A stretch of DNA of 64,000 nt from Clostridiales bacterium (GTDB lineage: Bacteria > Bacillota > Clostridia > Oscillospirales > CAG-272): positions 1 through 64,000 of the forward strand of contig JAAWDG010000007.1 of assembly GCA_022793655.1 (NCBI GenBank). Reading direction: 5' to 3'. The notes under the pieces are model-generated. The model ran no database searches. It was given only the letters and a program-made list of their open reading frames with translations, and was not told where the DNA came from. Below are positions 1 through 14,698 of the stretch, in pieces (the first letter of the stretch is position 1; each line of letters starts with the position of its first letter). Position numbers and translations under genes: made by a program.

Positions 1-1
1 C

Positions 2-751
2 GACGATTATTATTTGTGGAACGGGTCTACTGGCCCGGTTTATGTATTCACCGCCGACAGATATCCCAAGGTGGGCGATACCGTATATTATGGAACACCG
101 GGCGCAAGTATATACCCGACGAGTTTCGGTCAGTACGACAATGTAAAAACGGTAAACGCCGATGGCACAATCACACTGACGTGTCAGGATACGTTAACCT
201 ATGCGCAGGGGGTAATCCTCAGCCTGACGAATCATAAGGACATTCCGGTAATGGGCTACGAGCGGATCGGTGAAAAACCATGGCGGATTTTGCTTGATTA
301 TACGGCTTCGGACAGCACGCAAAGCCATCTGTATGCGAATAAAGACATAGATGGCAATGCGTTTTCAGTCTCAGAAATCGAGGTCTATTTTGCCCTTGAA
401 GTTCCGGGGTCTAATACAGAGTATGCACATCGGTTTGTACTGATGGGGAATACAAATTCTTCTGTCACGAATACGAACAGTATGTTTAAACTTTCCGCTT
501 CCAATGGGAGTAACTATGGAAGTCTTAGGATGAATTTAAACCCGGTTTTGAGTGGGTGGAGTGGCATTGCTGAATGGTCAACATCAAAAACAACTAATTT
601 TTCAGAAAATAATCCAAGTAATGTATATGCCGCACATCAATTTGGCTCACCGGGAATATTGTCCAGCTTTAGTATCAATGGCGCGATAAAGGGTAACACC
701 AGCGCTGCACCTTTTTATACCGGCACCCGCTTTGTTGTGAGAGGGCGGTGA
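2..751 (+). CDS. Phage tail / receptor-binding protein, C-terminal part (5' end outside window)
   Basis: The reading frame is open from base 2, so the gene begins left of the window; an in-frame TTG at 14 is not needed as a start. About 250 residues are visible. They are rich in Gly, Ser, Thr and Asn with many aromatic residues and look beta-rich, as in the tip domains of phage tail fibres or receptor-binding proteins. I recognise no named domain. It lies directly upstream of holin and endolysin, a usual place for the last tail gene. The call rests on composition and position rather than on a motif. Confidence 0.6.
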   Translation, partial: DDYYLWNGSTGPVYVFTADRYPKVGDTVYYGTPGASIYPTSFGQYDNVKTVNADGTITLTCQDTLTYAQGVILSLTNHKDIPVMGYERIGEKPWRILLDYTASDSTQSHLYANKDIDGNAFSVSEIEVYFALEVPGSNTEYAHRFVLMGNTNSSVTNTNSMFKLSASNGSNYGSLRMNLNPVLSGWSGIAEWSTSKTTNFSENNPSNVYAAHQFGSPGILSSFSINGAIKGNTSAAPFYTGTRFVVRGR

Positions 752-830: not shown

Positions 831-1256
831 ATGAAAGAAATGATTTGTACCGGAATCGGTGTGGTGGGAAGCATTATCGCTTCACTGTTCGGAGGCTGGG
901 ACGCTGCCTTGATCACCTTGGTGATCTTCATGGGTATCGATTACGTAACCGGCCTGATCGTGGCTGGGGTGTTCCACAAATCCGAAAAAACCGAAAACGG
1001 CGCGCTGGAATCGCGTGCCGGCTGGAAGGGACTTTGCCGAAAGGGCGTGACCCTCTTAATTGTGCTGGTAGCCTACCGATTAGATGTGGTGATCGGTTCT
1101 ACGTTCATCCGGGACGCAGTCGTGATTGCCTTCATCGCCAATGAAACAATCTCCATTGTTGAGAACGCAGGGCTGATGGGCATTCCGGTTCCAGGGGCTC
1201 TTGTTAAGGCGGTTGAAGTCTTGCGGAAGAAGTCGGAAGGTGAGAAAGATGATTAA
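831..1256 (+). CDS. Phage holin, holin-4 / TcdE-like family
   Basis: 141 residues with several hydrophobic segments (about 5-20, 24-45, 73-90 and 95-125) and a charged C-terminus, the size and layout of the Firmicutes holin family that includes TcdE. The segment around residue 35 (GIDYVTG) is typical of the family. A Shine-Dalgarno site (AAAGGA, about 819-824) precedes the ATG. The gene overlaps the endolysin by 8 nt, so the two are probably translationally coupled. Its product would permeabilise the membrane to release the endolysin. An 11-codon ORF (756-791) in the gap upstream is possible but unsupported. Confidence 0.88.
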   Translation: MKEMICTGIGVVGSIIASLFGGWDAALITLVIFMGIDYVTGLIVAGVFHKSEKTENGALESRAGWKGLCRKGVTLLIVLVAYRLDVVIGSTFIRDAVVIAFIANETISIVENAGLMGIPVPGALVKAVEVLRKKSEGEKDD

Positions 1257-2058
1257 AAAAGTCATAACCAATCTGATCGCCGAAAGCAAATGGGATTTAA
1301 AATGTCCTTATACAATGAAGCCCACGCGTATCGTGATACATAACACCGCAAACGATGCCAGCGCACAAGACGAGATCGCCTATATGGGCCGGAACGATAG
1401 CACGACATCGTATCACTACGCCGTAGACGATCAGGCAGCCGTGCAGGGCTTACCCCTTTCCCGTAACGGCTGGCATGCAGGAGACGGAGCCTTTGGCAAA
1501 GGGAACCGGGAGGGAATCGGTATTGAGATATGCTATTCTAAATCGGGAGGCAAGCGCTTTGAAGAGGCACAAGAGAATGCCGCTGAGCTGTGCGCACAGC
1601 TGCTGAAGGAGCAGGGATGGGGACTTGATCTTAGCAAGATCACAAAACACGAGGACTACGCACCAAAGCATTGCCCGCACCGCACGCTGGACGATTACGG
1701 CTGGGATTATTTTTTACAGATGGTAAAACAAAAGTATGAAGAGATGGAGGAAGAACCCATGACAAAAGAAGAAAAAGCCGCCTTTGAGAAGCTGGCGGCC
1801 AGAGTAGATACACTGGTAAAAGAAAATGTAGAACTGAAAGAACGCCTTGATAAGTACGACAAGATGGGCGTCTATGAGAATGCGGCGATTAAATGGGCGT
1901 ACAACGATGGCAATCTGCCTTCCTGGGCGCGCCCAACGGTGAAGAAACTGACGGGTAAAGGGTATTTGTATGGAAACGATAAAAATTCATTAGAGCTTTC
2001 CTATATCATGCTGAGATTACTGGTCATTCTTGATCGGGCTGGGTGCTTTGGCGAGTAA
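1249..2058 (+). CDS. N-acetylmuramoyl-L-alanine amidase (phage endolysin)
   Basis: 269 residues from the ATG at 1249; an upstream in-frame start would run far into holin. The N-terminal half is an Amidase_2-type domain: RIVIHNTAN with the first zinc-binding His, SYHYAVDD with a second conserved His region, GIGIEICY with the catalytic Glu area, and KHEDYAPKHCPHRTL with the late zinc ligand. It would cleave the amide bond between muramic acid and the stem peptide. Residues about 165-205 are Glu/Lys-rich and probably a coiled-coil linker. The last 60 residues have an SLH-like look (WAYNDG...LPSWARPTVKKL), possibly for wall binding. It has no signal peptide, as expected for a holin-dependent lysin. 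Confidence 0.9.
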   Translation: MIKKVITNLIAESKWDLKCPYTMKPTRIVIHNTANDASAQDEIAYMGRNDSTTSYHYAVDDQAAVQGLPLSRNGWHAGDGAFGKGNREGIGIEICYSKSGGKRFEEAQENAAELCAQLLKEQGWGLDLSKITKHEDYAPKHCPHRTLDDYGWDYFLQMVKQKYEEMEEEPMTKEEKAAFEKLAARVDTLVKENVELKERLDKYDKMGVYENAAIKWAYNDGNLPSWARPTVKKLTGKGYLYGNDKNSLELSYIMLRLLVILDRAGCFGE

Positions 2059-2071
2059 GTGAGGTGAAGCG

Positions 2072-2515
2072 ATGCCAGGACAAAGATTAAACATTGACTG
2101 GGAAAAGCTAAAATGCGAATATGCACTTGGTACCATGAGTACAAATGACATGGCCGAAAAATATGGATGTTCTCACTCAACCATACTTAAGCACTGCCAG
2201 TCCGACCACTGGAAGGCTGCCAGAAAGGCGTATAAGGACAAGATGGTGAAAAGCGCAATTCATGAAGCGGCCGAGGCGGCCGGGGACAAGCTTTTTTCCT
2301 TAATGCAAGCCTCTGATAAGCTGGACGACATGATTGGCCACATCTGTCTTTTACTTGACAATGAAGAACTAACGGTGCGAGATATTAAAGACTTGGCCTC
2401 TGCTATTAAGGACGCGATTACCATTAAACGAGACCTGTGGAATTTGCCCAAGGAAAAGGCGAAGGAGGCGGAAATCGTGGTTCGTTTTGACGGGCCTGAG
2501 GAATATGCGACATGA
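2072..2515 (+). CDS. terS: Phage terminase small subunit
   Basis: 147 residues. The N-terminal 50 contain a helix-turn-helix (MSTNDMAEKYGCSHSTILKH) as used for recognising the packaging site, followed by helical Lys/Glu-rich sequence for oligomerisation. It lies upstream of the terminase large subunit, separated only by a 25-codon ORF whose ATG overlaps this gene's stop (ATGA). Size and position fit the small subunit of the DNA-packaging motor. The exact subfamily is not recognised. Confidence 0.8.
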   Translation: MPGQRLNIDWEKLKCEYALGTMSTNDMAEKYGCSHSTILKHCQSDHWKAARKAYKDKMVKSAIHEAAEAAGDKLFSLMQASDKLDDMIGHICLLLDNEELTVRDIKDLASAIKDAITIKRDLWNLPKEKAKEAEIVVRFDGPEEYAT

Positions 2516-2589
2516 GTCATTTAACAATTCCCGAACTAAGTGAAAAACAAAAGCTGTTTTTAACCAACCAGCGGAGGAAGTATGAGTAG
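2512..2589 (+). pseudogene. 25-codon ORF resembling the N-terminus of terminase large subunit
   Basis: ATG at 2512 overlaps the terS stop (ATGA) and the ORF ends with TAG at 2587-2589, inside the start region of the terL gene. Its peptide shares the core EKQKLFLT and following Q with residues 11-20 of the downstream TerL, and both begin MS..TI. The DNA carries an exact 20-bp direct repeat with the TerL start (2542-2561 and 2612-2631, offset 70). I read it as a partial tandem duplication or recombination scar of the terL 5' end, now serving as a short coupling ORF that carries the terL ribosome-binding site (GGAGGAAG, 2573-2580). Confidence 0.55.
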
Positions 2590-2631
2590 TGTGACCATTC
2601 AATCACCAAACGAAAAACAAAAGCTGTTTTT
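2542..2631 (+). repeat. 20-bp direct repeat, offset 70 bp
   Basis: The same 20 bases beginning GAAAAACAAAAGC occur at 2542-2561 and 2612-2631. The second copy encodes residues 11-17 of TerL; the first lies in the 25-codon ORF between terS and terL. The offset is not a multiple of three, so the copies are read in different frames relative to each other. Confidence 0.9.
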
Positions 2632-3994
2632 GACTGATCAGCATAAATTCGTTGCATTCGGCGGAGCCAGGGGGGGCGGCAAAAGCTGGGCAGTGCGGAC
2701 AAAGGCCAAGCTACTTTGTCTAAACTATCCGGGCATTAAGCTGCTGATCATCCGTAAGACTTATAAGGAATTAGACAATAACCATATCAGTCCTTTGCGG
2801 GGAGAACTAAGCGGTATTGCCACCTATAACGATTCCAAGAAACGCTTTACCTTTCCGCAAAATCGAAAGGGGGCTTTCCTTGGTGCCTCGACCATTTCCT
2901 TTGGTTATTGTGCCAGTGACGCTGACGCTGAACAATATCAGGGGGCCGAATACGATGTCATTTTTATTGACGAGGCCACAAATTTGGATGAAATGTGGAT
3001 TCGTAAAATTATTGCCTGTTGCCGCGGGGTAAACGGCTTTCCCAAGCGGGTGTACTACACCTGCAACCCCGGCGGGCGCAGCCACCACTACATCAAACGG
3101 CTTTTTATTGACCGGAATTTTCATGATACAGAAGACCCGGACGAGTATTCCTTTATCCAGGCGCTGGTACAGGACAACACGGTATTAATGAAAACACAGC
3201 CCGACTATGTAAAGCAGCTTGAGGTACTGCCCCCAAAACTGCGTGACGCTTGGCTGTATGGCCGGTGGGATGTATTTGCCGGACAATTTTTTGAAGAGTT
3301 TGTGGACGACCCCGCCCACTATGCGGATGGTGTATGGACCCATGTGGTTGATCCGCTGCCTCTTGCTAAAATTCGGCGCATGAACATTTGGCGCAGCTAT
3401 GACTGGGGGTATAACAAGCCCTTTTCCTGCGGCTGGTGGGGAATTGACGCGGACGGAGTGGTTTATCGGCTGCTTGAACTTTACGGCTGCACCGAATCTC
3501 CTGATGAAGGGGTGAAATGGACCAACGACAAACAATTCAAAGAAATGGCCGACATCGAGCGGCAGCACCCTTACCTAAAGGGCAAAAAGATTCAAGGGGT
3601 GGCCGATCCTTCCATTTGGGACGCTTCTCACGGGGAGTCCACCGCCGAGGCGGCCAGCCGGTACGGTATTTACTTTGAGCCGGGCGACAATGAACGCATC
3701 GCCGGGTGGATGCAAATGCGTTATCGGCTGCAATTTGACGGGAACGGAAAACCTCGAATGTATATTTTTAACACCTGTAAGGCGTTTATCCGCACAATTC
3801 CTCTCTTGCAGTATTCGGAAACCCACCCAGAGGATTTAGATACCAAGCAGGAAGACCATGTAGCGGATGAAAGCCGGTATTTCTGTATGGCCCGTCCAGT
3901 AAAGCCGCTCATACAGGAAGAAAAGAGACCACCAATCTATGATCCGCTTGGTACATTAAAAGAAAACAAACGAGTGACTCAATTTAGAATCTAA
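2582..3994 (+). CDS. terL: Phage terminase large subunit (packaging ATPase/nuclease)
   Basis: 470 residues. Walker A GGARGGGKS (residues 27-35) and Walker B VIFIDE (126-131) give the packaging ATPase; the Asn/Thr-containing coupling segment YYTCNPGG follows. The C-terminal half has the RNase H-like nuclease start SYDWGYNKP (about residue 274) with the first metal-binding Asp, and a later VADPSIW segment with another. Length fits the Terminase_6-type families. It pumps DNA through the portal and cuts it. The ATG at 2582 follows a strong Shine-Dalgarno site and overlaps the short duplicated ORF. The portal gene begins 12 nt downstream. Confidence 0.95.
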   Translation: MSSVTIQSPNEKQKLFLTDQHKFVAFGGARGGGKSWAVRTKAKLLCLNYPGIKLLIIRKTYKELDNNHISPLRGELSGIATYNDSKKRFTFPQNRKGAFLGASTISFGYCASDADAEQYQGAEYDVIFIDEATNLDEMWIRKIIACCRGVNGFPKRVYYTCNPGGRSHHYIKRLFIDRNFHDTEDPDEYSFIQALVQDNTVLMKTQPDYVKQLEVLPPKLRDAWLYGRWDVFAGQFFEEFVDDPAHYADGVWTHVVDPLPLAKIRRMNIWRSYDWGYNKPFSCGWWGIDADGVVYRLLELYGCTESPDEGVKWTNDKQFKEMADIERQHPYLKGKKIQGVADPSIWDASHGESTAEAASRYGIYFEPGDNERIAGWMQMRYRLQFDGNGKPRMYIFNTCKAFIRTIPLLQYSETHPEDLDTKQEDHVADESRYFCMARPVKPLIQEEKRPPIYDPLGTLKENKRVTQFRI

Positions 3995-4006
3995 GGAGTG
4001 TAAAAT

Positions 4007-5923
4007 ATGGCTTTTTTTAAGAGACGGCCACAGACAGAAGATCCAGAAAACAAAGAGGTAAGTGACGCCGTCATTGGTGCAAAGGAAATTAAGCATTTTA
4101 ACGAGGTACTGAAAAAATACAAAGAGGGAAAGGGAAGCATTGAGCGCCGGGTGGTGGATAACGAAGAATGGTGGAAGCTACACCAGTGGCAGCAGACTGG
4201 CAATGGAAACCCGGAAGATATCCAGCCGAAAGGCGCGTATTTATGGAACACCATTGAGGTGAAACACGCTGATGTGACGGCGGCTTATCCGGAACCTTCT
4301 GTGCGTCCGCGAAATGCGGAGGATGAACCCGAGGCTAAAAAACTATCTTCGGTATTGCCGGTTGTCTTAGAACAAAACGATTTTCGCAGAACATGGAGTG
4401 AGGTAAACAAATACAAGCTCAAACAGGGGACGGGTGTTTACGGCGTTTTTTGGGACGCAGGCAAGCACGGCGGGCTTGGAGACATATCCATTTGCAAGAT
4501 CGATTTGCTGCGGATTTTTTGGGAGCCGGGGATACAAGATATTCAACATTCAAGATATGTATTTTTGACTGATCTTGTGGATATCGATTTGCTGGAACAA
4601 CAATACCCTGAACATAAGGGCAAGCTGCGAGCGGGCGGATCCTTTAACGTCCAAAAATATTTATATGACGACCATGTGGATGACTCTGAAAAGACGGTAG
4701 TGATTGACGTCTATTACAAAGTAAAACGAGATGGCCGGACGATTCTCCATTATTGCAAATACGCGGGCAACTGTGTTTTGTATGCGACCGAGAACGACCA
4801 AGGGGCGGTTATCGACAACGATACAGGCGAGCCACAGGGGGACTCTCCAAGCGTACGGGGGCTTTATGATCATGGCCTTTATCCCTTTGTATTTGACCCT
4901 CTTTTTGAGGTGGAAGGCAGTGTGGCCGGGTATGGCTACATTGACATTGGCAAATCTATGCAGATGCAGATTGATCTTATGGATCAAGCCTTTATTAAAT
5001 CCACTCTGGCCAACTGCACGCCGCGGTATCTGGTGGGCGGTAATTTGAACATTAATGAAGCAGAATTTGCCGATTTTACCAAGCCCTTTGTGCGGGCCGA
5101 GGGGTTAGTGAGCGATACGAATATGAGGGAGATTCCCAAGACCTCTCTTTCGGGCAATTTTCTAAACGTCTATCAAATGAAGGTGAATGAAATCAAAGAG
5201 GTGCTGGGCAACCGAGACGTAGCCAACGGTGGAACGACAAGTGGGGTGACGGCCGCTTCTGCGATTGCCACATTGCAGGAAGTTTCCGGCCGTATGAGCA
5301 AGGATTCCACCCGTGATGCGTATAATGCTTACCGGCAAATTGTCATCTTATGCATTGAATTGATCAGGCAATTTTACGACTTGCCTCGCACATTCCGCAT
5401 ACTGGGTGACCGAGGGACTGAAGAATTTATTGAATATACCAACCAAGGCCTTGGCGAGCAGGCGCAGACCAATATTATGGGGGTGGAGATGGGGTTGCGG
5501 CTGCCAGTTTTTGATGTGGAGGTTTCGGCCCAAAATGCGACCGAATACACTAAGCAAAGCCAAAATGAGATGGCGCTGCAATTTTTCAATCTGGGTTTCT
5601 TTAATCCCCAGCTTGCCGACCAGGCGCTTGCCTGTCTTGATATTATGGATTTTGACCACAAAGAAGAGATTGAGGAGCGAGTGCAGCAAAACGGACTCAT
5701 GTTCCAGCAGCTTCAGCAATTGCAGCAAATGGTGTTGGCTTTAGCGCAGAAATATGAGCCGGCTCTCGCCGCCCAGCTTATGGAAACCGGACTTGTGGGT
5801 GCACAGCCCATGCCCCAGGCGAAAACGTCTTTTTCAGCCGGCACAGCAGGGGAAGAACATGCGTTTGTGAAAAGGGCGAGACAGGCGGCCGATGAGGCGG
5901 CAAGACCAGAGGGGGCCTCATGA
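4007..5923 (+). CDS. Phage portal protein, P22 gp1-like
   Basis: 638 residues, long for a portal and consistent with the P22/podovirus type. Features include an acidic/basic N-terminus, a WKLHQW tryptophan-rich start of the wing region, a long central region with aromatic-rich beta segments, and a Gln/Met-rich C-terminal helix (LQQLQQMVLAL, about residues 566-576) as in the barrel region of long portals. It forms the dodecameric DNA channel at one capsid vertex, with terminase docking before it and connectors after. It lies between terL and prp; its stop overlaps the prp ATG (ATGA). Confidence 0.88.
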   Translation: MAFFKRRPQTEDPENKEVSDAVIGAKEIKHFNEVLKKYKEGKGSIERRVVDNEEWWKLHQWQQTGNGNPEDIQPKGAYLWNTIEVKHADVTAAYPEPSVRPRNAEDEPEAKKLSSVLPVVLEQNDFRRTWSEVNKYKLKQGTGVYGVFWDAGKHGGLGDISICKIDLLRIFWEPGIQDIQHSRYVFLTDLVDIDLLEQQYPEHKGKLRAGGSFNVQKYLYDDHVDDSEKTVVIDVYYKVKRDGRTILHYCKYAGNCVLYATENDQGAVIDNDTGEPQGDSPSVRGLYDHGLYPFVFDPLFEVEGSVAGYGYIDIGKSMQMQIDLMDQAFIKSTLANCTPRYLVGGNLNINEAEFADFTKPFVRAEGLVSDTNMREIPKTSLSGNFLNVYQMKVNEIKEVLGNRDVANGGTTSGVTAASAIATLQEVSGRMSKDSTRDAYNAYRQIVILCIELIRQFYDLPRTFRILGDRGTEEFIEYTNQGLGEQAQTNIMGVEMGLRLPVFDVEVSAQNATEYTKQSQNEMALQFFNLGFFNPQLADQALACLDIMDFDHKEEIEERVQQNGLMFQQLQQLQQMVLALAQKYEPALAAQLMETGLVGAQPMPQAKTSFSAGTAGEEHAFVKRARQAADEAARPEGAS

Positions 5924-6234
5924 TTCAAGTAGTTTATGAAAAGAAAAAAGCGCGCCTTTACTGCACTGGACATGCCCGAAGCGGGGAGCCGGGAAAGGAT
6001 TTGGTATGCGCGGCCTGCTCCATGCTGATCTATGGTCTTGCGGATTCCATCGCTAAATTGAGCGGCAAGGCAGAGCTTACGCTTGAATCGGGAAGGGCTG
6101 TGATAGGCAGTCAAACAAAAAACATGAAGAGAAAGAAGCGGGCTAAGGTAGAGGCGGTGTATTGGGGCTATCGAAACGCTTTTCGTCTTCTTGCCGACAA
6201 TTATCCGGCGTTTGTTGCTTATCTGGAAAAATAA
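5920..6234 (+). CDS. prp: Prp-type cysteine protease (DUF464), phage-encoded
   Basis: 104 residues, the usual size of Prp. The catalytic pair is visible: His18 in TGHARSG and Cys30 in DLVCAACS, 12 residues apart as in the Staphylococcus enzyme, with the conserved Gly/Asp between. In the host family Prp removes the N-terminal extension of ribosomal protein L27 after an LNLQFF-type motif, and the staphylococcal enzyme also trims phage capsid and scaffold proteins. Here the gene sits between portal and scaffold, and the next two gene products carry the matching motif at their N-termini, so it is very likely this phage's maturation protease. Starts by ATGA overlap with portal. Confidence 0.93.
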   Translation: MIQVVYEKKKARLYCTGHARSGEPGKDLVCAACSMLIYGLADSIAKLSGKAELTLESGRAVIGSQTKNMKRKKRAKVEAVYWGYRNAFRLLADNYPAFVAYLEK

Positions 6235-6318
6235 TTTTGGGGCGAGGTTAGAAAATAGTTTTTCTATATCTTATAGTAGTATTAGAGTCGCGGGCTTTAC
6301 TCGCAGAAAGGAAAAAAT
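6235..6318 (+). other. Short gap with possible internal promoter
   Basis: 84 bases between prp and scaffold. It contains TATAGTAT-like AT-rich sequence at about 6270-6280 and a Shine-Dalgarno site AAAGGA before the scaffold ATG. A promoter for the abundant head proteins is possible but no good -35 box is seen. Confidence 0.25.
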
Positions 6319-7275
6319 ATGAAAAATTTGAGGCTGAATTTAACCCTGTTTGGCGAAGAAGGCACGGGGACGCCCGGAACGGAAAGCACAGGGAATGAGG
6401 CAAGCTCGCCACTTGCAGAAGTACAAAAGAATCAAGATGCCGCACCGCGTGTGGTATATGGAAAGCAAAAGGTGAATCCCGAAGCAAAGCCGGAGGAAAA
6501 AGAGCCGGCGTCAGAAGAAGAGACTGCTTCTGATCGGAAAGCAGAAACAGAAAGTTTTGAGGATTTAATTGCCGGAAAGTACAAAGAAGATTTTGAAAAA
6601 CGGGTAGAGGACATCTGGAAAAAGCGATTCAAGAACAAGACGGGGTTCGCTGAACTCGAGGAGCAAAACGCCTCAATGCGGGAACTTTTGGAAAACACCG
6701 CAAGGCGCTATGGACTTGATCCTGCTTCCGAAACTTTATTGGATGACATTCGAAAAGCACAGGATGCAGACGATGAAATCTACGCTAAAGAGGCGTATGA
6801 CAAAGGGGTTAGCGTAGAAGAATACCGGCGCGATTTAAAGCGGGAACAAGAGATCAAAACGCTAAGCCAAAAGGTGGAGGAAAATGAAAAGCGGGAAGCG
6901 CAGCGCGTTTGGCTGCAAAACTTACAAAACCAGGTACCGCAGGTACAAAAGATTTTCCCTACTTTTAATTTAGACGAGGAAATGAAAAATCCGGATTTCG
7001 CATACTTGGTGCGCCCCGGTTCCCCTACCTCAATTGAGGACGCAATGTATGCGGTTCACCACCGCGAAATTCTATCGGGAGCGGTGAAAACAGCAGCACA
7101 AGAGGCGGCGAAAAAGACGGCCAATACCATTGCGGCAGGTAGGGCGCGTCCGATAGAGGGAGGGCTTTCCACACCACCGCCTGTCATTGTGAAAAACGAT
7201 CCTTCAAAATGGACTAAAGAGGACCTTGCGGAAATTCGCCGCAGGGTGGCAAGAGGAGAACGAATTGAGTTATAA
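6319..7275 (+). CDS. Phage scaffolding protein with N-terminal Prp cleavage motif
   Basis: 318 residues, strongly charged (Glu/Lys) and predicted mostly helical with coiled-coil stretches (about 100-215), typical of a scaffold. The first 15 residues are MKNLRLNLTLFGEEG: LNLTLF matches the L27/phage Prp site LNLQFF, so cleavage after Phe11 is predicted. Residues 17-75 are a disordered acidic segment. It lies immediately upstream of the major capsid protein. It would guide capsid assembly and then leave. A role as a head protease is unlikely since no catalytic motif is seen and Prp is encoded upstream. Confidence 0.85.
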   Translation: MKNLRLNLTLFGEEGTGTPGTESTGNEASSPLAEVQKNQDAAPRVVYGKQKVNPEAKPEEKEPASEEETASDRKAETESFEDLIAGKYKEDFEKRVEDIWKKRFKNKTGFAELEEQNASMRELLENTARRYGLDPASETLLDDIRKAQDADDEIYAKEAYDKGVSVEEYRRDLKREQEIKTLSQKVEENEKREAQRVWLQNLQNQVPQVQKIFPTFNLDEEMKNPDFAYLVRPGSPTSIEDAMYAVHHREILSGAVKTAAQEAAKKTANTIAAGRARPIEGGLSTPPPVIVKNDPSKWTKEDLAEIRRRVARGERIEL

Positions 7276-7289
7276 GAGAAAGAAAGGAA

Positions 7290-8273
7290 ATGATGATGAA
7301 AGAATTTATTGTTAATTTACAGTTATTTGCTGACGCGGCGTCGGCGACTGTTTATGATGCATCAACCGTGGGTATGACAACGGCAAAGCCCGAATCTATG
7401 TCCCACGAAATGAAAACCTATTACAACAAAGAACTGTTAGAAAACGCGAAGCCGAATCTGGTGTACATACAATTCGGAAAAGAATGTCCCATTCCGGCCG
7501 GCAGTGGCAAAGCGGCCGAGTGGCGGAAATTTTCGCAGTTTGAACGGGTGTCTACCCCACTGACCGAGGGCGTGGTTCCCAGTCCGACGGCGGCTACCGT
7601 CACCACGGTTACCGCTTCTACCAACCAATATGGCGCGTGGACGCCGGTTTCAGATGTACTGGATTTGACGGCCATTGATAATGTGATCTTAGAGGTGACC
7701 AAGGAGCATGGCGATAATGCTGGGCGCTCTCTTGACAGCTTGGTGCGAGATGTAGTCTATGCCAACACCAACATAATGGGAGATGGCACTTCGGTGATTA
7801 CGCCCGCGCTCATTGCACAGTGTGTAGCAGCCCTAAAGCGACAGAACGCGCCTTCCATTAACGGGAAATATCACTGCATTATCCATCCTTCTGTGGCCTA
7901 TGATTTAATGCAGGACGACGCATGGATTGACGCGCACAAGTACAAGAATCCCGAAAACATCTATGCGGGCGAAATTGGTGAAATGTATGGGGTGCGCTTT
8001 TTTGAAAGTACGCAAGCACCTTTGACCAGCGAAAAAATTTACTATACTCCGATTTTCGGCGCCGATGCGTACGGTGTGGTGAACATTGAGGGCGGCGGTC
8101 TTGAAACGATTGTTAAAGACAAGAGCGAAGGGGGCACGGCCAATCCGTTGAACCAATACAGCACGGTGGGCTGGAAGGTGACGGCCTTTGGTGCGGTCAT
8201 GCTTTATCCCGAACGGCTGGTGAATTTGAAAGTAACATCTACATTGGCGGCGGCTGACACAGCAAATGTATAA
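7290..8273 (+). CDS. Phage major capsid protein with N-terminal Prp cleavage motif
   Basis: 327 residues, beginning MMMKEF; the third ATG (7296) has the best spacing to AAAGGA at 7283-7288 and may be the true start. The N-terminus reads FIVNLQLFADAAS: NLQLFA is a close match to the Prp site in L27, with cleavage predicted between Phe and Ala. The remainder resembles HK97-fold capsid proteins of Firmicutes phages: a proline/threonine-rich E-loop region near residues 75-105, a DSLVRDVVY spine-helix segment, and a C-terminal GWKVTAFGAVMLYPERLVNLK strand typical of this family's end. Position after the scaffold supports the call. Confidence 0.92.
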   Translation: MMMKEFIVNLQLFADAASATVYDASTVGMTTAKPESMSHEMKTYYNKELLENAKPNLVYIQFGKECPIPAGSGKAAEWRKFSQFERVSTPLTEGVVPSPTAATVTTVTASTNQYGAWTPVSDVLDLTAIDNVILEVTKEHGDNAGRSLDSLVRDVVYANTNIMGDGTSVITPALIAQCVAALKRQNAPSINGKYHCIIHPSVAYDLMQDDAWIDAHKYKNPENIYAGEIGEMYGVRFFESTQAPLTSEKIYYTPIFGADAYGVVNIEGGGLETIVKDKSEGGTANPLNQYSTVGWKVTAFGAVMLYPERLVNLKVTSTLAAADTANV

Positions 8274-8286
8274 GGGGGAATGCAAA

Positions 8287-8520
8287 TTGGCAGAGAAAAA
8301 GAATGCAAATACGGAGAAGGCAACTGAAATGATGACCATTCGCCTTCCCAAAAAACGGGGCGAGGATGCGAAATTCGTTGGCATTGACGGGGTATCTTAT
8401 CTGGTCAAGCGAGGGATTGATGTTGAAGTACCGAAGGCAGTTTATGATGAAATTATGCGTGCCGAGGCCGCTGAGACGCGAGCAGAGGAAAAGGCAGAGA
8501 CACTTGCTGCCAGTGAATAA
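8287..8520 (+). CDS. Small phage protein following the capsid gene, unknown function
   Basis: 77 residues from a TTG start at 8287, chosen because AAGGGGGAA (8272-8280) lies 6 nt upstream; an ATG at 8266 lies within the capsid gene and has no such site. The product is charged with a central strand-like MTIRLPKK, a GVSYLVKRG segment and an Ala/Glu-rich helical tail. Small proteins of this kind commonly follow capsid genes in clostridial phages, but I know no assigned function. Could be a head-decoration or completion protein by position only. Confidence 0.6.
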   Translation: MAEKKNANTEKATEMMTIRLPKKRGEDAKFVGIDGVSYLVKRGIDVEVPKAVYDEIMRAEAAETRAEEKAETLAASE

Positions 8521-8527
8521 CGAATCA

Positions 8528-8546
8528 GGGCCGCTTGAAGCGGCCC
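8528..8546 (+). terminator. Hairpin between capsid-associated and connector genes
   Basis: A 7-bp GC-rich stem GGGCCGC / GCGGCCC with loop TTGAA, followed by only TTTCC. It begins 7 nt after the 8520 stop. It may be a weak terminator or a processing/attenuation site that lowers expression of the tail genes relative to the capsid gene. Confidence 0.5.
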
Positions 8547-8576
8547 TTTCCATCAATGGAAGGGGAACAAAACGAA

Positions 8577-8942
8577 ATGAAAGTGATCGATGTAATTTCT
8601 TACGTGGATAAGGTATGCCATAACTCGCTTGACGGACAGGTCAAAATCAAGATGTTGGAAAGACTGGACAGACAGATAGCCAGAGACGTTTTTGACACAC
8701 ACGAAGGGTCACCGGAATATGATTTGCGTGAATACACAGAATCGACTGAATTATTGGTTCCGGATGATTTTTCTGAACTCTATTTTTTCTATTTAGAATC
8801 TAAAATTTGGCTTCTTTTAAATCAAATAGCCCGGTATCAAAACATGGCGGTGATCTATGATACGGCGTATACGGCCTTTGTGTCTGATTACAACCGTACA
8901 CACAAACCAAAACACCCTGTATCTGCTTTGAGGTTCGCATGA
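8577..8942 (+). CDS. Putative head-tail connector protein
   Basis: 121 residues from the ATG at 8577, preceded by GGAAGGGG; the upstream in-frame ATG at 8535 falls inside the hairpin. The product is helical with an aromatic-rich centre (SELYFFYLESKIWLLLNQIARYQN) and a short basic tail. Size and position after the capsid gene fit an adaptor/connector that binds the portal. No family-defining motif is recognised. The stop overlaps the next ATG (ATGA). Confidence 0.5.
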   Translation: MKVIDVISYVDKVCHNSLDGQVKIKMLERLDRQIARDVFDTHEGSPEYDLREYTESTELLVPDDFSELYFFYLESKIWLLLNQIARYQNMAVIYDTAYTAFVSDYNRTHKPKHPVSALRFA

Positions 8943-10990
8943 ACAATTTACCATATAAGAACATGACAAGCGCGCAAATGAACCAGGAGATGATCACGCA
9001 GTTTTTAGGATACAACCACTATCTGCGGCCTGGAGAGGGCGAATGGTTCGACATGAAAAATATTACCAGCAGTGATTATCCTGTTTTTTCTCCACGCCGT
9101 CCTCGTGGTGAAAAGCAGCAGATTCCACGCTTGCAGGGGATGGCGGGTAAGGATAAACTGGCCTATGTAGCCGACAACAAACTCTATTATGACGGGAAAG
9201 AGATTTTTGACTTAGTAGCCGACCGATGGCAGCTAATGTTTGCAACTCCTACAGATTGGGAAGAGGACTGCACTCGTTACTTTAAGGATACCGAAGGAAC
9301 CAGAGTGGAACCGGGTACGTCCTTTAAGGCTGACAAATTTTATAAAAATCCCTACTATGACACACAGCGTACACTGGTTTCCATGGGTGCTTATTTAGTC
9401 ATTTTTCCCGATAAGCGTTATATCAACACGGTTGATTTTTCTGACAAAGGTGATTTAGAGGCGGTTGTTGACTTTAAAGAAAGCTTTATGGGAGATTTGC
9501 CTCCGACGGTGTTTTTTAGTCCCTGCGATCAGGAGGGCACTGTCTATGAACAAAAGACTTTTCGCCTGCTTACTGAAGAGCCTGATGACTGGAGCGAAAA
9601 TTATAAGACTAAATATTATTTATGGAAGGGGCCGACACAAGGCTATTGTTTATACGATGATACAATTGTATGGCACCCCAATGTTGTTTACGAAAAAGTA
9701 GAATTGATTGGAACAGAGAAGCCGCTGCATCCTATGGACGGCGATATATGGATTGATACGACCACCCCGGAGAATCCGGTGACGCGCAAATATTCTTCTA
9801 CTATGCAGATGTGGACAGTTGTTTCCTCTACCTATTTCAAGGTAGAATCGCCTGGCATTGGGGCGCCTTTTCGCGATGGTGATACGGTAACGTTATTTTG
9901 CTATGGAGACATGGATTTAAATGGAGACTATAACATTGTGAAAGCAGATAACGATTCATTCATTGTGGCGGGCGTTTTGGCTTCTTTTCGTAAGGTTGAC
10001 AGCGGTGTCATAATCAAAAGAGTTTGTCCTGATATGGATTTTGTCATTGAGGGAGAAAACCGGTTATGGGGTTGCCGGTACGGCATCAGTGAGAAAACCG
10101 GAAAATTTGTCAATGAAATTTATGCCTGCAAGCTGGGGGATTTCAAGAACTGGTATACCTATGCAGGGGTTAGCACTGACGCCTACGCGGTGAGTCTTGG
10201 CAGTGACGGGGCCTTTACAGGCGCGGTCTTTTATGCGGGCTCTCCTACTTTCTTTAAAGAAAGATATGTACACCGCATTACCGGCAATATTCCGGCCAAT
10301 TACTGCCTATACACAACAGTGTGTGAAGGGGTACAGGCGGGCAGCGGAAAAAGTCTTGCCGTGGTAGACGGAAATTTACTTTACAAAAGTCCCACTGGCG
10401 TGATGACCTATACAGGCGGGTATCCTTCCTCCATTAGTTCGGCATTTGGTGATGAAATCTATTACGGAGCTGTGGCGGGTGAGGTGAACCACAAGTACTA
10501 TCTTTCTATGCGGAACGAGAAAGGAGTATATCGGTTATTCGTTTTTGACACTGCAAAAGGACTTTGGCACATTGAGGACGATATTGAGGTAAAAGGCTTT
10601 GCCAGGGTGAGTGATGTGTTGTACGGCTGGTGCGATGATAATATTTTTGCTATGGTTGGCAGGTGCGATGAAAGTAGTGAGAGGGATGTTGACTGGTATG
10701 CTGAAACGGGTATTTGCGGGGCTGTGTACCCTGATCAATCCTTCGTATCTAAAATTGCGGTGCGTGCGTCTTTGCCACCAGGGTCGCATATAGAGGCATA
10801 CATTGAATACGATTCGGACGGCAAATGGCAACCTGTTGGCAGTGTGGCGGGGACCAGCTTTATGAGCACATCCTTTTCCATTTTGCCCAGGCGCTGTGAT
10901 CATTACGCGCTGCGCTTTGAGGGAGTGGGAGATTGCAAAATTTATTCCATCACCAAAACGATTGAGCAGGGGAGTGATGCGACATGGTAG
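8939..10990 (+). CDS. Large phage tail-hub / nozzle-like structural protein
   Basis: 683 residues, strongly beta in character with many aromatic residues, Gly and Asp, and repeated short segments such as YYDGKEIFDL, LLYKSPTGVM and YYLSMRNEKGVYRLFVFD that look like blades of a beta-propeller. In podoviruses the nozzle proteins (T7 gp12, P22 gp10) are beta-propeller proteins located after the connector, and this gene is in the matching place. The assignment is an inference from position and appearance. It overlaps genes on both sides (8939-8942 and 10984-10990), so translation is coupled. Confidence 0.5.
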   Translation: MNNLPYKNMTSAQMNQEMITQFLGYNHYLRPGEGEWFDMKNITSSDYPVFSPRRPRGEKQQIPRLQGMAGKDKLAYVADNKLYYDGKEIFDLVADRWQLMFATPTDWEEDCTRYFKDTEGTRVEPGTSFKADKFYKNPYYDTQRTLVSMGAYLVIFPDKRYINTVDFSDKGDLEAVVDFKESFMGDLPPTVFFSPCDQEGTVYEQKTFRLLTEEPDDWSENYKTKYYLWKGPTQGYCLYDDTIVWHPNVVYEKVELIGTEKPLHPMDGDIWIDTTTPENPVTRKYSSTMQMWTVVSSTYFKVESPGIGAPFRDGDTVTLFCYGDMDLNGDYNIVKADNDSFIVAGVLASFRKVDSGVIIKRVCPDMDFVIEGENRLWGCRYGISEKTGKFVNEIYACKLGDFKNWYTYAGVSTDAYAVSLGSDGAFTGAVFYAGSPTFFKERYVHRITGNIPANYCLYTTVCEGVQAGSGKSLAVVDGNLLYKSPTGVMTYTGGYPSSISSAFGDEIYYGAVAGEVNHKYYLSMRNEKGVYRLFVFDTAKGLWHIEDDIEVKGFARVSDVLYGWCDDNIFAMVGRCDESSERDVDWYAETGICGAVYPDQSFVSKIAVRASLPPGSHIEAYIEYDSDGKWQPVGSVAGTSFMSTSFSILPRRCDHYALRFEGVGDCKIYSITKTIEQGSDATW

Positions 10991-11202
10991 AGAGACCAGC
11001 ACCGTTATACGGCAGCGAATCTGACCAAATTAGGCAAATCCATGACTATTTATGCCGGTTGGCAGATCAGTTAAACGACACCGATTTACAAGCAAGCGAG
11101 TTGGCGGATAAAATTTTAGAAAACGACTGCGGGACAGGCGTACCGTTGAAGGATCAATTCAAAGCAATGAAAAATATTTATGGAGGAGGCAATAATGGCT
11201 AA
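10984..11202 (+). CDS. Small phage protein, unknown function
   Basis: 72 residues, probably helical (QIRQIHDYLCRLADQLND is amphipathic). Starts within the end of the nozzle-like gene and its 3' end contains the Shine-Dalgarno site GGAGGAGG for the next gene, which it overlaps by 8 nt. This places it in the same translational chain of virion genes. Function not recognised; could be a tail-assembly chaperone or minor virion protein. Confidence 0.6.
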   Translation: MVERPAPLYGSESDQIRQIHDYLCRLADQLNDTDLQASELADKILENDCGTGVPLKDQFKAMKNIYGGGNNG

Positions 11203-12313
11203 ATGGTTAAATGGCGTGGATGATGAGACGATGCAGCGCATGAACGCGCCTTATAGTCAGAGTGATGAAGTAAATCAAAAAGGGGTTGAAGCACAAAATG
11301 CGTATTTTGCGGTGAAAAACTGGCAGGGGAGCGGAAAGGCGCAGGCAGCGCTCGATAAATGGAAAAATACGGGACCGTTTTCCTATGACCCTGATTCGGA
11401 TAGCTTATTCCAGAGCGCCAAGGCAAATGCGATTGCAAACGGCAAGGTGGCCATGCAGGACACCATTGGGCAGGCTTCGGCTTTGACGGGCGGGTATGGC
11501 AATTCCTATGCTACGACGGCGGGAAGCCAAGCCTATCAAAATTACTTAAAATCTTTAGACGATGATTTAGCGACTTATTATCAGCTGGCACTGGATCAAT
11601 ATCAGCAAAACAAGAACGATTTGCTAACCGAATACTCCATTGAAAGTGAACGGGACGATACCGATTATTCCCGGCTGTACAACGCCTATAATGTGGCACA
11701 GGATCGGTATAACACCGACCGTTCCTTTGATTATGGCAAGTGGGCGGACGAATATCAGCAGGCGGTCTCTATGGCTGGTATGCAGAACCAGGACTACTGG
11801 ACACAAAAGAATTTTGACGAAGAGGCACGACGGTGGCAGGCTAATTACGATGAGAGCAAAAGACAGTTTGATGCTAATTTGGCCGAGAGCCAGCGACAGT
11901 ATGATCAAAATTATTATGCCAGCACCTCATCGGGGTCTGGGGGAAAAAGCAACGGTTTCACCAGTCAGCAGTACTGGGATGTGACGGATGATGCGAAAAA
12001 TATACGTGATCAATACTCGGATGATCCAGAAAAAGCGAATCAAGAAGTTTTTCGGCGTGCTAACGCTGCCTATAACGGTGGACAGATGAGCGACGATGAA
12101 TATATTTCTTTGCTGCATAATTATATTGATGGGGATTGGTTGGAGAGATTCACGATTACTGACAACAACGGAAATATAGTATTTAATCAATCAGCATACG
12201 ATGAGTATATAAATAACGCAACAAGCAATAGTAATAGTGGCAAGAGTACAGGCGCATCGCCATCAATTATAGATGGATTTATTGGTGGTGCTATTAAGAA
12301 AAAGAACAGGTAA
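11195..12313 (+). CDS. Phage coiled-coil protein, possible ejection/internal virion protein
   Basis: 372 residues from the ATG at 11195 (GGAGGAGG 8 nt upstream). It is very rich in Gln, Asn, Tyr, Asp and Ala. A segment at about 75-100 (QASALTGGYGNSYATTAGSQ) is a recognisable conserved patch in proteins of Firmicutes phages with no assigned function. Residues about 105-245 are heptad-like and probably coiled coil. A Gly/Ser linker (about 247-255) separates a C-terminal helical part (QYSDDPEKANQEVFRRA). Last gene of the prophage. By place and composition it could be a DNA-ejection or internal protein, but this is not shown. Confidence 0.6.
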   Translation: MAKWLNGVDDETMQRMNAPYSQSDEVNQKGVEAQNAYFAVKNWQGSGKAQAALDKWKNTGPFSYDPDSDSLFQSAKANAIANGKVAMQDTIGQASALTGGYGNSYATTAGSQAYQNYLKSLDDDLATYYQLALDQYQQNKNDLLTEYSIESERDDTDYSRLYNAYNVAQDRYNTDRSFDYGKWADEYQQAVSMAGMQNQDYWTQKNFDEEARRWQANYDESKRQFDANLAESQRQYDQNYYASTSSGSGGKSNGFTSQQYWDVTDDAKNIRDQYSDDPEKANQEVFRRANAAYNGGQMSDDEYISLLHNYIDGDWLERFTITDNNGNIVFNQSAYDEYINNATSNSNSGKSTGASPSIIDGFIGGAIKKKNR

Positions 12314-12334: not shown

Positions 12335-12549
12335 TTCCTGCATTATAGGCAATGAAGGACAGTAAGAGAATAGCCCGGAAAAACAGGGTGATCTGTACAC
12401 GTTTTTTACACGTTTGAAACAAAGGGAATGTATTTTTGATAAAACGTGCTGAAATTAATATAGTGCAAAAATGCTTGTATATCAAGGGGTTTTGGTGATA
12501 TTTGCATACAAAACTAAATGAAGAAAAAAGCAAAAAAGCGGTGAAATCA
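12335..12549. other. Non-coding phage right end (attachment-site arm)
   Basis: 215 bases without a plausible gene between the late-operon terminator and the tmRNA fragment. AT-rich in its second half, with short direct and inverted words that could be integrase arm sites; no site is recognisable by eye. Confidence 0.4.
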
Positions 12550-12771: not shown

Positions 12772-13887
12772 ATGTTCTATAATAGCAAAAAACTGATCGA
12801 TGAAAAAGTTCTGCAACAATACTTTTTTGAAAAATTTATGTTGGCAAATGCGCAAGAAATGAAAAGTCTGCTACCTGCAAAATACCATGCTTTGTACCCT
12901 GATATACGGAGTAGAAAAGGATTGCAGCCCGAAGTTGCGTTGGGAGGGGTAACTAACGAGAAAATTCATAAAACTGATTTTGTTTTGTATCCAACATCAA
13001 GCGCTTCAAAAAGATTAAATATAGAAATTAAGTGGAAAAAAGATGACTTTGAAACGTGGCGTTATCCTTATTATGACGGAACATATAACGATGGTTTTGT
13101 AGTATGTTTAGGAACATTAGGTGATAGAAATGATGACAAAATAAATGGAACAGACATTCCTGTTATTTATTTAGACAGACATGATTTTGAGCAATGGTTT
13201 ATTCTAAATGCACAAACTATCATTTCACAAGCGCTATCTAATAAATTAGGTGTTTCACCGATTCGATTAACCGGACACAAATATTGGGTAGTATCTGTCG
13301 GTAATAAAGCTTTAGACCATTATATTAATTTTGGACGAAAAAATTTTATATGGGCGTTTCGAAATAATGTTAGCCCTTGCAATATTATGAAAATTTTGGA
13401 GGGAGACTATGTTATATTTTTTAATTTGAGTTACTGCGAGCCAGGAAGAATGTTGGTGCCTAATTATACGAATAAAAATCGTATCAAACCAACGACGAGA
13501 GGCGGGCAGGTAAAGTCGGGAGACATCAGATGGGCAATCGGCTTAGCCGATGTATATCAAGTGAAAAAAGGGTACCATTTAAATTTTGGAAATAGTCCTT
13601 TGTATTCAGGCTTTGAAACGAAAAACTGGGATAAAAGACCGGATACAAAAGATTATACACAATATATTTCCTTTTATAACAATTCTAATAATACTGATAA
13701 TTTCCAATATCGATGGCCGGATAATACAAATAAGGTTTTACCTCGCGAATTGTTTCCGGATACAGATGCCAATTTGAGGGAATTGGTATTAGCATTTAGT
13801 CAATCTTTCAATCATGTAGGTGATGCTAAAGAAATAAGTTTTTCTTCTTTTCAGGCTTTTATGCAGCTTTTACATGCAGTGTCATGA
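12772..13887 (+). CDS. Putative restriction endonuclease: PD-(D/E)XK nuclease plus PUA/EVE-like domain
   Basis: 371 residues. Residues about 50-130 show a PD-(D/E)XK pattern: Asp69 (KTDFVLYP), then Glu85-x-Lys87 (NIEIKWKK), with Glu54 as a possible extra acid. Residues about 168-262 look like a PUA/EVE-type fold: HKYWVVSVG at its start, NFIWAFRNN, GDYVIFFN and WAIGLADV, resembling the strands around the base-binding pocket in EVE proteins that read modified cytosine. Together this suggests a modification-dependent nuclease acting against modified phage DNA. The gene is AT-rich against its neighbours, stands alone without a methyltransferase, and sits 200 bp from the prophage attachment site. 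No known enzyme name can be given. Confidence 0.6.
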   Translation: MFYNSKKLIDEKVLQQYFFEKFMLANAQEMKSLLPAKYHALYPDIRSRKGLQPEVALGGVTNEKIHKTDFVLYPTSSASKRLNIEIKWKKDDFETWRYPYYDGTYNDGFVVCLGTLGDRNDDKINGTDIPVIYLDRHDFEQWFILNAQTIISQALSNKLGVSPIRLTGHKYWVVSVGNKALDHYINFGRKNFIWAFRNNVSPCNIMKILEGDYVIFFNLSYCEPGRMLVPNYTNKNRIKPTTRGGQVKSGDIRWAIGLADVYQVKKGYHLNFGNSPLYSGFETKNWDKRPDTKDYTQYISFYNNSNNTDNFQYRWPDNTNKVLPRELFPDTDANLRELVLAFSQSFNHVGDAKEISFSSFQAFMQLLHAVS

Positions 13888-14609: not shown

Positions 14610-14698
14610 TGGCGGAGAGGGAGGGATTCGAACCCTCGTGTGCTTGCGCACAAACTGATTTCGAGTCAGCCCCGTTATGACCACTTCGATACCTCTCC
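14610..14698 (-). tRNA. tRNA-Ser (anticodon CGA)
   Basis: 89 nt on the minus strand. Acceptor stem GGAGAGG / CCTCTCC, discriminator G, encoded CCA. The anticodon loop is CTCGAAA, giving anticodon CGA for codon UCG. A long variable arm (TTTGTGCGCAAGCACACG) marks a class II tRNA, and the T-loop GGTTCGAATCC is standard. Confidence 0.95.

Follow-up and report, generated by a model that had tools for sequence, protein, structure and literature searches.

A protease of the family that processes ribosomal protein L27 in bacteria raises a simple question when its gene is found among phage head genes: what does it cut there? Such a gene lies near the left end of the stretch analysed here (contig JAAWDG010000007.1 of the Clostridiales assembly GCA_022793655.1, positions 1 to 64,000 of the forward strand, hereafter the window). 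We consider it highly probable that the prophage at this end of the window, dormant in a bacterium of gut type, carries a dedicated Prp-family (C108) head-maturation protease, which would cut the neighbouring scaffold and major capsid protein (MCP) at N-terminal sites.

The identity of the enzyme was examined at the levels of family, active site and fold. The product of the open reading frame (ORF) at 5920-6234 matched the Pfam family PF04327 Peptidase_Prp (E 2.9e-12, 47.1 bits against a cut-off of 27) and the PHROG family phrog_4478, labelled 'peptidase' (E 3.7e-14). The His/Cys dyad and the Asp three residues before the Cys are kept, with H18, D27 and C30 standing for H22, D31 and C34 of S. 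aureus Prp. The AlphaFold2 model, computed with an alignment of 37 relatives, reached a predicted local distance difference test score (pLDDT) of 91.4. Its VIA-align Z values against solved Prps were 16.2 (2idl), 14.7 (1s12), 13.8 (7kld) and 13.6 (7jvs), the last two being S. aureus Prp structures with product or substrate. Solved Prps were the only strong structural matches, and the next unrelated chain scored Z 7.0. Pfam, PHROG and fold thus agree with the preliminary description of the locus, which had placed a 104-residue Prp (His18, Cys30) directly before scaffold and capsid genes. The enzyme resembles bacterial Prp (YsxB, MEROPS C108, rplU-prp-rpmA) in fold, His/Asp/Cys signature and type of site, but the phage lineage is separate on the tree and the gene sits in a head operon. 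It is placed after the portal gene rather than between rplU and rpmA, where the host copy is found. It also missed the NCBIfam equivalog cut-off for L27-processing Prp (30.3 bits vs 133), although this is a weak test, as the host's own Prp falls below its cut-off too (44 vs 135).

Both genes that follow encode products with an L27-like site at the N-terminus. The scaffold begins MKNLRLNLTLF↓GEEG (↓, cut, predicted except in phage Cp-1); for the capsid protein the beginning is M(M)(M)KEFIVNLQLF↓ADAA. The two sites named at the outset, LNLTLF before GEEG and VNLQLF before ADAA, can therefore be read directly in the sequence. The residues 1-11 given there for the capsid protein have to be relaxed: translation of this protein may begin at 7290, 7293 or 7296, so that 11 to 13 residues would go, not strictly 11. 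That the first of these products is a scaffold is our inference from its position, its size and the Prp fusions described below, phrog_13908 having no assigned function. The core motif [ND][LI]x[..]F[ADGS] occurred within the first 30 residues of 36 of the 61 MCPs at Prp-bearing phage loci, compared with 0 of 371 for the remaining genes in these loci, taken from outside the Prp-MCP interval, which argues that the sites are not due to chance. A slightly wider motif, searched across the window with any start codon allowed, returned only the scaffold, the capsid protein and one unrelated minus-strand ORF (39688). A loose version of the motif was dropped in favour of the stricter one, as about a quarter of genes matched it within their first 32 residues.

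In the mechanism that we propose, Prp would be made late and in translational coupling with the portal gene, whose stop codon overlaps the Prp start (ATGA at 5920-5923). With matching sites present, the enzyme is predicted to cleave sites of the type [ND]LQ(F or L)F↓A. In both the scaffold and the MCP, the cut would directly follow the Phe that closes an N-terminal [ND]L-x-[hydrophobic]-F site and would take off 11 to 13 residues, in the way that phage 80alpha is served by the Prp of its staphylococcal host. By analogy with 80alpha, assembly may need the uncut N-terminus of the scaffold, the cut coming later. We infer that cleavage takes place, that the phage enzyme and not the host Prp performs it, and that its role is in assembly.

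Prp and its sites in related phages

An alignment of six phage Prps (A1) was used to search IMG/VR, contigs from GTDB and 295 genomes belonging to the order. These searches gave about 60 distinct phage loci, almost all with the order portal-Prp-scaffold-capsid. The scaffold and capsid sites of relatives form pairs, such as NLQLF↓AGEG with NLQLF↓ADAG, NLRLF↓DGDG with NLRLF↓DTQV, and GLQHF↓AEGG with SLQHF↓ANGA. For a sample chosen neither by Prp nor by site, we searched genomes with a capsid profile (A2) from which the N-terminal 32 residues had been left out, fetched the surroundings of the MCP genes and then inspected them for Prp and site. Out of 58 capsid genes found, 3 were too near contig ends and were dropped. 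The remaining 55 comprised 39 loci with Prp and site, 0 with Prp without site, 5 with site without Prp and 11 with neither (Fisher p = 4e-8, with related phages counted separately, a profile built mostly from Prp-bearing loci, and Prp searched only a few kb to either side of the distant site-less loci). The 39 include one locus in which Leu replaces the Phe before the cut (P1; L110, NLQLL↓A) and one in which Prp lies 8.7 kb upstream of the MCP, so that it at first seemed to have no Prp nearby (G003). In five phage-like loci no Prp was found near a site-bearing capsid gene, from which it follows that a phage does not always need its own Prp; one of these genomes (G188) carries a TerS-TerL-portal-Prp module (terminase small and large subunits) elsewhere. 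The comparison of prp-bearing and prp-less phages that the preliminary description had asked for thus shows the site tracking Prp, and from this comparative evidence the pairing of protease and substrates is very likely.

A few loci are arranged differently. Two IMG/VR phages (L010 and L011, genomes G295 and G296) were at first taken for MCP loci without a nearby Prp, until Prp was found elsewhere in the phage. In both, a long distance separates Prp from the scaffold and capsid genes, yet both head proteins have sites; the Prp of G296 comes directly after the portal gene. One of the 11 loci classed as having neither (L217, G246:C8) has a scaffold site, ISLQFF↓ASEE, with a site-less capsid and no Prp within about 20 kb.

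The two substrates of a phage also vary together. In a set of 34 phages with Prp identity below 50%, the residue after the cut (P1') was the same in scaffold and capsid in 27, when 13.8 were expected and 0 of 20,000 shuffles reached as high a count. Where a phage Prp lacks the Asp of the catalytic loop (D31 in S. aureus), the capsid P1' tends to be Asp or Glu. The loci without this Asp are L018-L021, L118, L121, L122, L124, L127, L212, L224, L226 and L229. The association gave Fisher p 6e-6 after 70% clustering and 9e-4 after 50% clustering, and was not significant among independent pairs on the Prp tree (3 pairs); a link between loss of the loop Asp and an acidic P1' is therefore suggestive only. 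On a tree of 86 Prps (63 phage, 23 host), one change of label between phage and host suffices (support 67, short alignment), which argues against recent copying of the phage gene from the host. A broader reading, to which we give slightly less than even weight, is that phage Prps form a head-maturation lineage of their own that co-diversifies with its two substrates. Specificity would have shifted off host L27, the loop Asp being mostly lost where P1' is Asp or Glu, and in some lineages the enzyme would be part of the scaffold, giving a self-cleaving and possibly nested protease-scaffold protein.

Fusions of the two genes bear on this last point. At five loci in four genomes (L121, L127, L129, L135, L136), a single ORF holds Prp at about residues 1-105 and the scaffold family in the remainder, and PHROGs recognise both domains within the one protein. 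The sole matching site of these proteins, at residues 121-126, stands at the joint between the two domains: LDLCRF↓DGEE, VDLCRF↓DGET, MVDLQLF↓AEGE, MIDLQLF↓AKKD and MVELQLF↓AEGG. The next gene in every case encodes a capsid protein with its own site, whose P1' equals that of the joint (Asp in the first two, Ala in the last three). The Asp and Ala kinds fall into separate supported groups on the Prp tree, so fusion probably arose twice. All three Ala-type fusions have an in-frame ATG ahead of the site, and two of them have a strong ribosome-binding-like sequence with it, so the scaffold could also start there. As judged from these sequences, a site at the joint suggests that Prp is a dedicated virus-assembly enzyme. 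Lambda C/Nu3 is a nested protease-scaffold. The relatives with Prp fused in frame to the scaffold, three of them with an ATG just before the site, resemble it, but Prp is a cysteine protease of another clan, and the window has separate Prp and scaffold genes.

The host enzyme, the prophage and other explanations

The host chromosome carries a rplU-prp-rpmA operon of its own (contig C3), so the phage Prp is an additional enzyme; the two Prps have little in common beyond the active-site motif. The host L27 (peptide LRISLQFFAHKK) begins MLRISLQFF↓AHKKG, with ISLQFF↓A as its site. The sites of the window phage differ from this site at P5 and P2, and the scaffold site also at P3 and P1'. In all 23 host operons checked, the P1' of L27 was Ala. 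The occurrence of phage Prp in hosts lacking Prp was considered and not used: it was seen in 2 of 295 Bacteroidales genomes, one of them on a small contig of a metagenome-assembled genome (MAG), with possible mis-binning. The two matches are L043 and L158; L043 is phage-type and lies on a 46-kb contig of a GTDB Bacteroidaceae MAG with a short L27, perhaps mis-binned.

The gene order in the window is holin, endolysin, TerS, TerL, portal, Prp, scaffold-like gene and MCP (Table 1). The left end of the window (1-98) shares an overlap of exactly 98 bp with the end (1-98) of another contig from this genome, C21 (genome G000, locus L275). Genes for an integrase, a repressor and a replication initiator are found on C21, together with RuvC-like and RecE-like genes and one for a 2,731-aa virion protein; pyr genes of the host come next. 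From this overlap, the integrase and the 20-bp repeat at both ends, we conclude that a temperate prophage of about 35.7 kb is present, of which the Prp cluster forms the late half. A 371-aa protein without a Pfam match is encoded at 12772-13887, just beyond the prophage repeat and before a tRNA-Ser gene (14610-14698).

Table 1. Coordinates of the prophage features in the window and the matches or signatures that identify them.
Feature	Position	Strand	Basis
Holin	831-1256	+	PF05105 E 3e-38
Amidase endolysin	1249-2058	+	PF01510 E 2.2e-21
Terminase small subunit (TerS)	2072..2515	+	phrog_1206 E 2.4e-12
Terminase large subunit (TerL)	2582..3994	+	PF03237; phrog_2
P22-like portal protein	4007..5923	+	PF16510 E 1.6e-31; phrog_156
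Phage-encoded Prp cysteine protease, 104 aa	5920..6234	+	signature GHARSGEPGKDLVCAACS = His18, Asp27, Cys30
Putative scaffold protein, 318 aa, putative substrate 1	6319..7275	+	phrog_13908 E 6e-58; homologues fused to Prp
Predicted Prp site in scaffold, NLTLF↓G	6337..6354	+	sequence; kept in relatives; P1 Phe11 at 6349-6351
MCP, N4-gp56 family, 327 aa, putative substrate 2	7290..8273	+	TIGR04387 195 bits (cut-off 60); phrog_1357 E 1.8e-62
Predicted Prp site in capsid protein, NLQLF↓A	7314..7331	+	sequence; kept in relatives; P1 Phe at 7326-7328
683-aa virion protein (internal virion protein)	8939..10990	+	phrog_511 E 1.2e-56
20-bp direct repeat TACACGTTTTTTACACGTTT, probable att core	12396..12415	+	second copy just after integrase on contig C21, same genome

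Three other explanations have to be weighed. The host Prp might cut the sites as it does in 80alpha, leaving the phage prp redundant or a dosage booster. The related site of the host L27, the dependence of 80alpha on host Prp (PMC5744158) and the five loci with a site and no Prp found nearby speak for it; we nevertheless regard it as unlikely, since the site is kept in 39 of 39 Prp-bearing loci, the scaffold and capsid sites covary, often to Asp or Gly at P1' whereas the examined host L27s all have Ala, and the site of the fusions stands at the joint with Prp. Recognition by Prp is also species-tuned: the C. difficile enzyme leaves the L27 peptide of S. aureus uncut (PMC9405229), a sign that Prps discriminate. 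A phage Prp that acted mainly on host L27 or ribosome assembly, as a takeover of translation, would leave the motifs of the structural genes to another role, e.g. as a chaperone signal. The protease family is the same as that of the L27 enzyme, and the authors of the 80alpha study considered the idea that the N-terminal peptide has a shared role as a chaperone (PMC5744158). In nearly all phages, however, the Prp gene follows the portal and adjoins scaffold and capsid; Prp can be fused to the scaffold, and Prp and site are lost together, all of which makes this explanation extremely improbable. The gene content of the window and its split relatives also prompted the reading that the cluster is a domesticated element like a gene transfer agent (GTA), with Prp as its maturation enzyme: the genes at 2072-12313 resemble FpGTA I plus lysis genes (PMC12946183), and in several relatives the cluster is compact or split and has no integrase. 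We rejected it for the window, where it is very unlikely, on the C21 overlap with its integrase, repressor, replication and recombination genes and on the 20-bp repeat at both ends; in addition, the capsid gene is missing from 3 of the 4 genomes of the genus.

Against our preferred reading of a dedicated head protease stand several observations. An intact host Prp is present and might do the cleavage, and the five site-only phage-like loci have no Prp nearby. The scaffold site of the window is off the L27 consensus, with Thr at P3 and Gly at P1'. Cleavage is dispensable for the viability of 80alpha (PMC5744158). Finally, the loci surveyed are kin by descent, so our p-values and counts overstate their independence.

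Some relatives have a more GTA-like arrangement. In G188, of the same family, TerS-TerL-portal-Prp (L140, G188:C3) and scaffold-capsid-tail (L263, G188:C6) lie apart, each flanked by host genes, like a dispersed GTA. In two further genomes (G104, G062), a non-L27 Prp and the capsid gene lie on different contigs. On the complete chromosome of G108, a compact cluster of about 13 kb (L254, 5175-18488) holds terminase, portal, Prp, scaffold, capsid, tail, holin and lysin genes, with no integrase or replication gene seen. This cluster resembles FpGTA of Faecalibacterium (PMC12946183), and its Prp may be a GTA maturation enzyme.

Known systems and the meaning of the locus

The pairing recurs in cultured phages of other lineages. 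In Oenococcus phages phiS13 and phi9805, a gene labelled only 'peptidase' is a Prp, and the scaffold and capsid carry LLNLQRF↓AEGG and VNLQRF↓ADIA. As in the window, the 'peptidase' of phiS13, phiS11 and phi9805 lies by portal, scaffold and capsid genes with NLQRF↓A sites (read in phiS13 and phi9805), whereas the head proteins are different, as is the gene order, with a minor head gene between. The cultured Dorea phage DO134P1 (L278) has an unannotated Prp gene (5001-5276) and a scaffold with NLQLF↓AEGD; looser matches occur in its capsid (GLQVF↓TAPD) and in a tail protein (GLQVF↓SESN). This putative tail protein (8710-9261) starts MRRKEMQGLQVF↓SESN and is a possible third substrate. Taken with co-occurrence, covariation and fusions, the Oenococcus and Dorea phages support the original proposal of a dedicated phage Prp with matched targets.

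The closest studied case is 80alpha, in which the host Prp cuts scaffold and capsid between F and A (PMC5744158). The window phage shares with it an N-terminal L27-like Prp site on scaffold and MCP, cut after Phe in 80alpha (PMC5744158, PMC9405229). Unlike 80alpha, which has no protease gene, it encodes Prp, has an N4-gp56 capsid and is a podovirus-like prophage. A phage protease of this clan is not in itself new. According to the passage of PMC12445089 that cites Martin et al. 1998, Streptococcus phage Cp-1 (clan CR) encodes a protease essential for maturation that removes 48 residues of the major head protein, so the principle of a Prp-clan capsid protease encoded by the phage itself was already known. 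In our searches Cp-1 orf13 was a weak Prp relative (E 1e-4 with the Prp profile; 18.5 bits in Pfam, under the cut-off). It is like the window gene in being a Prp relative encoded by a phage, but it does not adjoin head genes, and the residues before the cut of its capsid (ARIN-H48↓A49) do not form an L27-like site. A literature search found no paper on phage-encoded Prp with L27-like sites or on Prp-scaffold fusions, although absence is not proof. As far as that literature shows, what is new is the L27-like sites on both head proteins alongside a phage Prp, the breadth of the pairing and the fusions.

These loci provide dozens of natural protease-substrate pairs for Prp, a family of antibiotic targets, with a substrate choice that can be read from sequence. 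The system also bears on why phages cut the N-termini of scaffold and capsid although the cut is dispensable in 80alpha. Overall, Prp appears to be a modular phage head protease that has been paired with several unrelated sets of head genes, including scaffold fusions that would process themselves.

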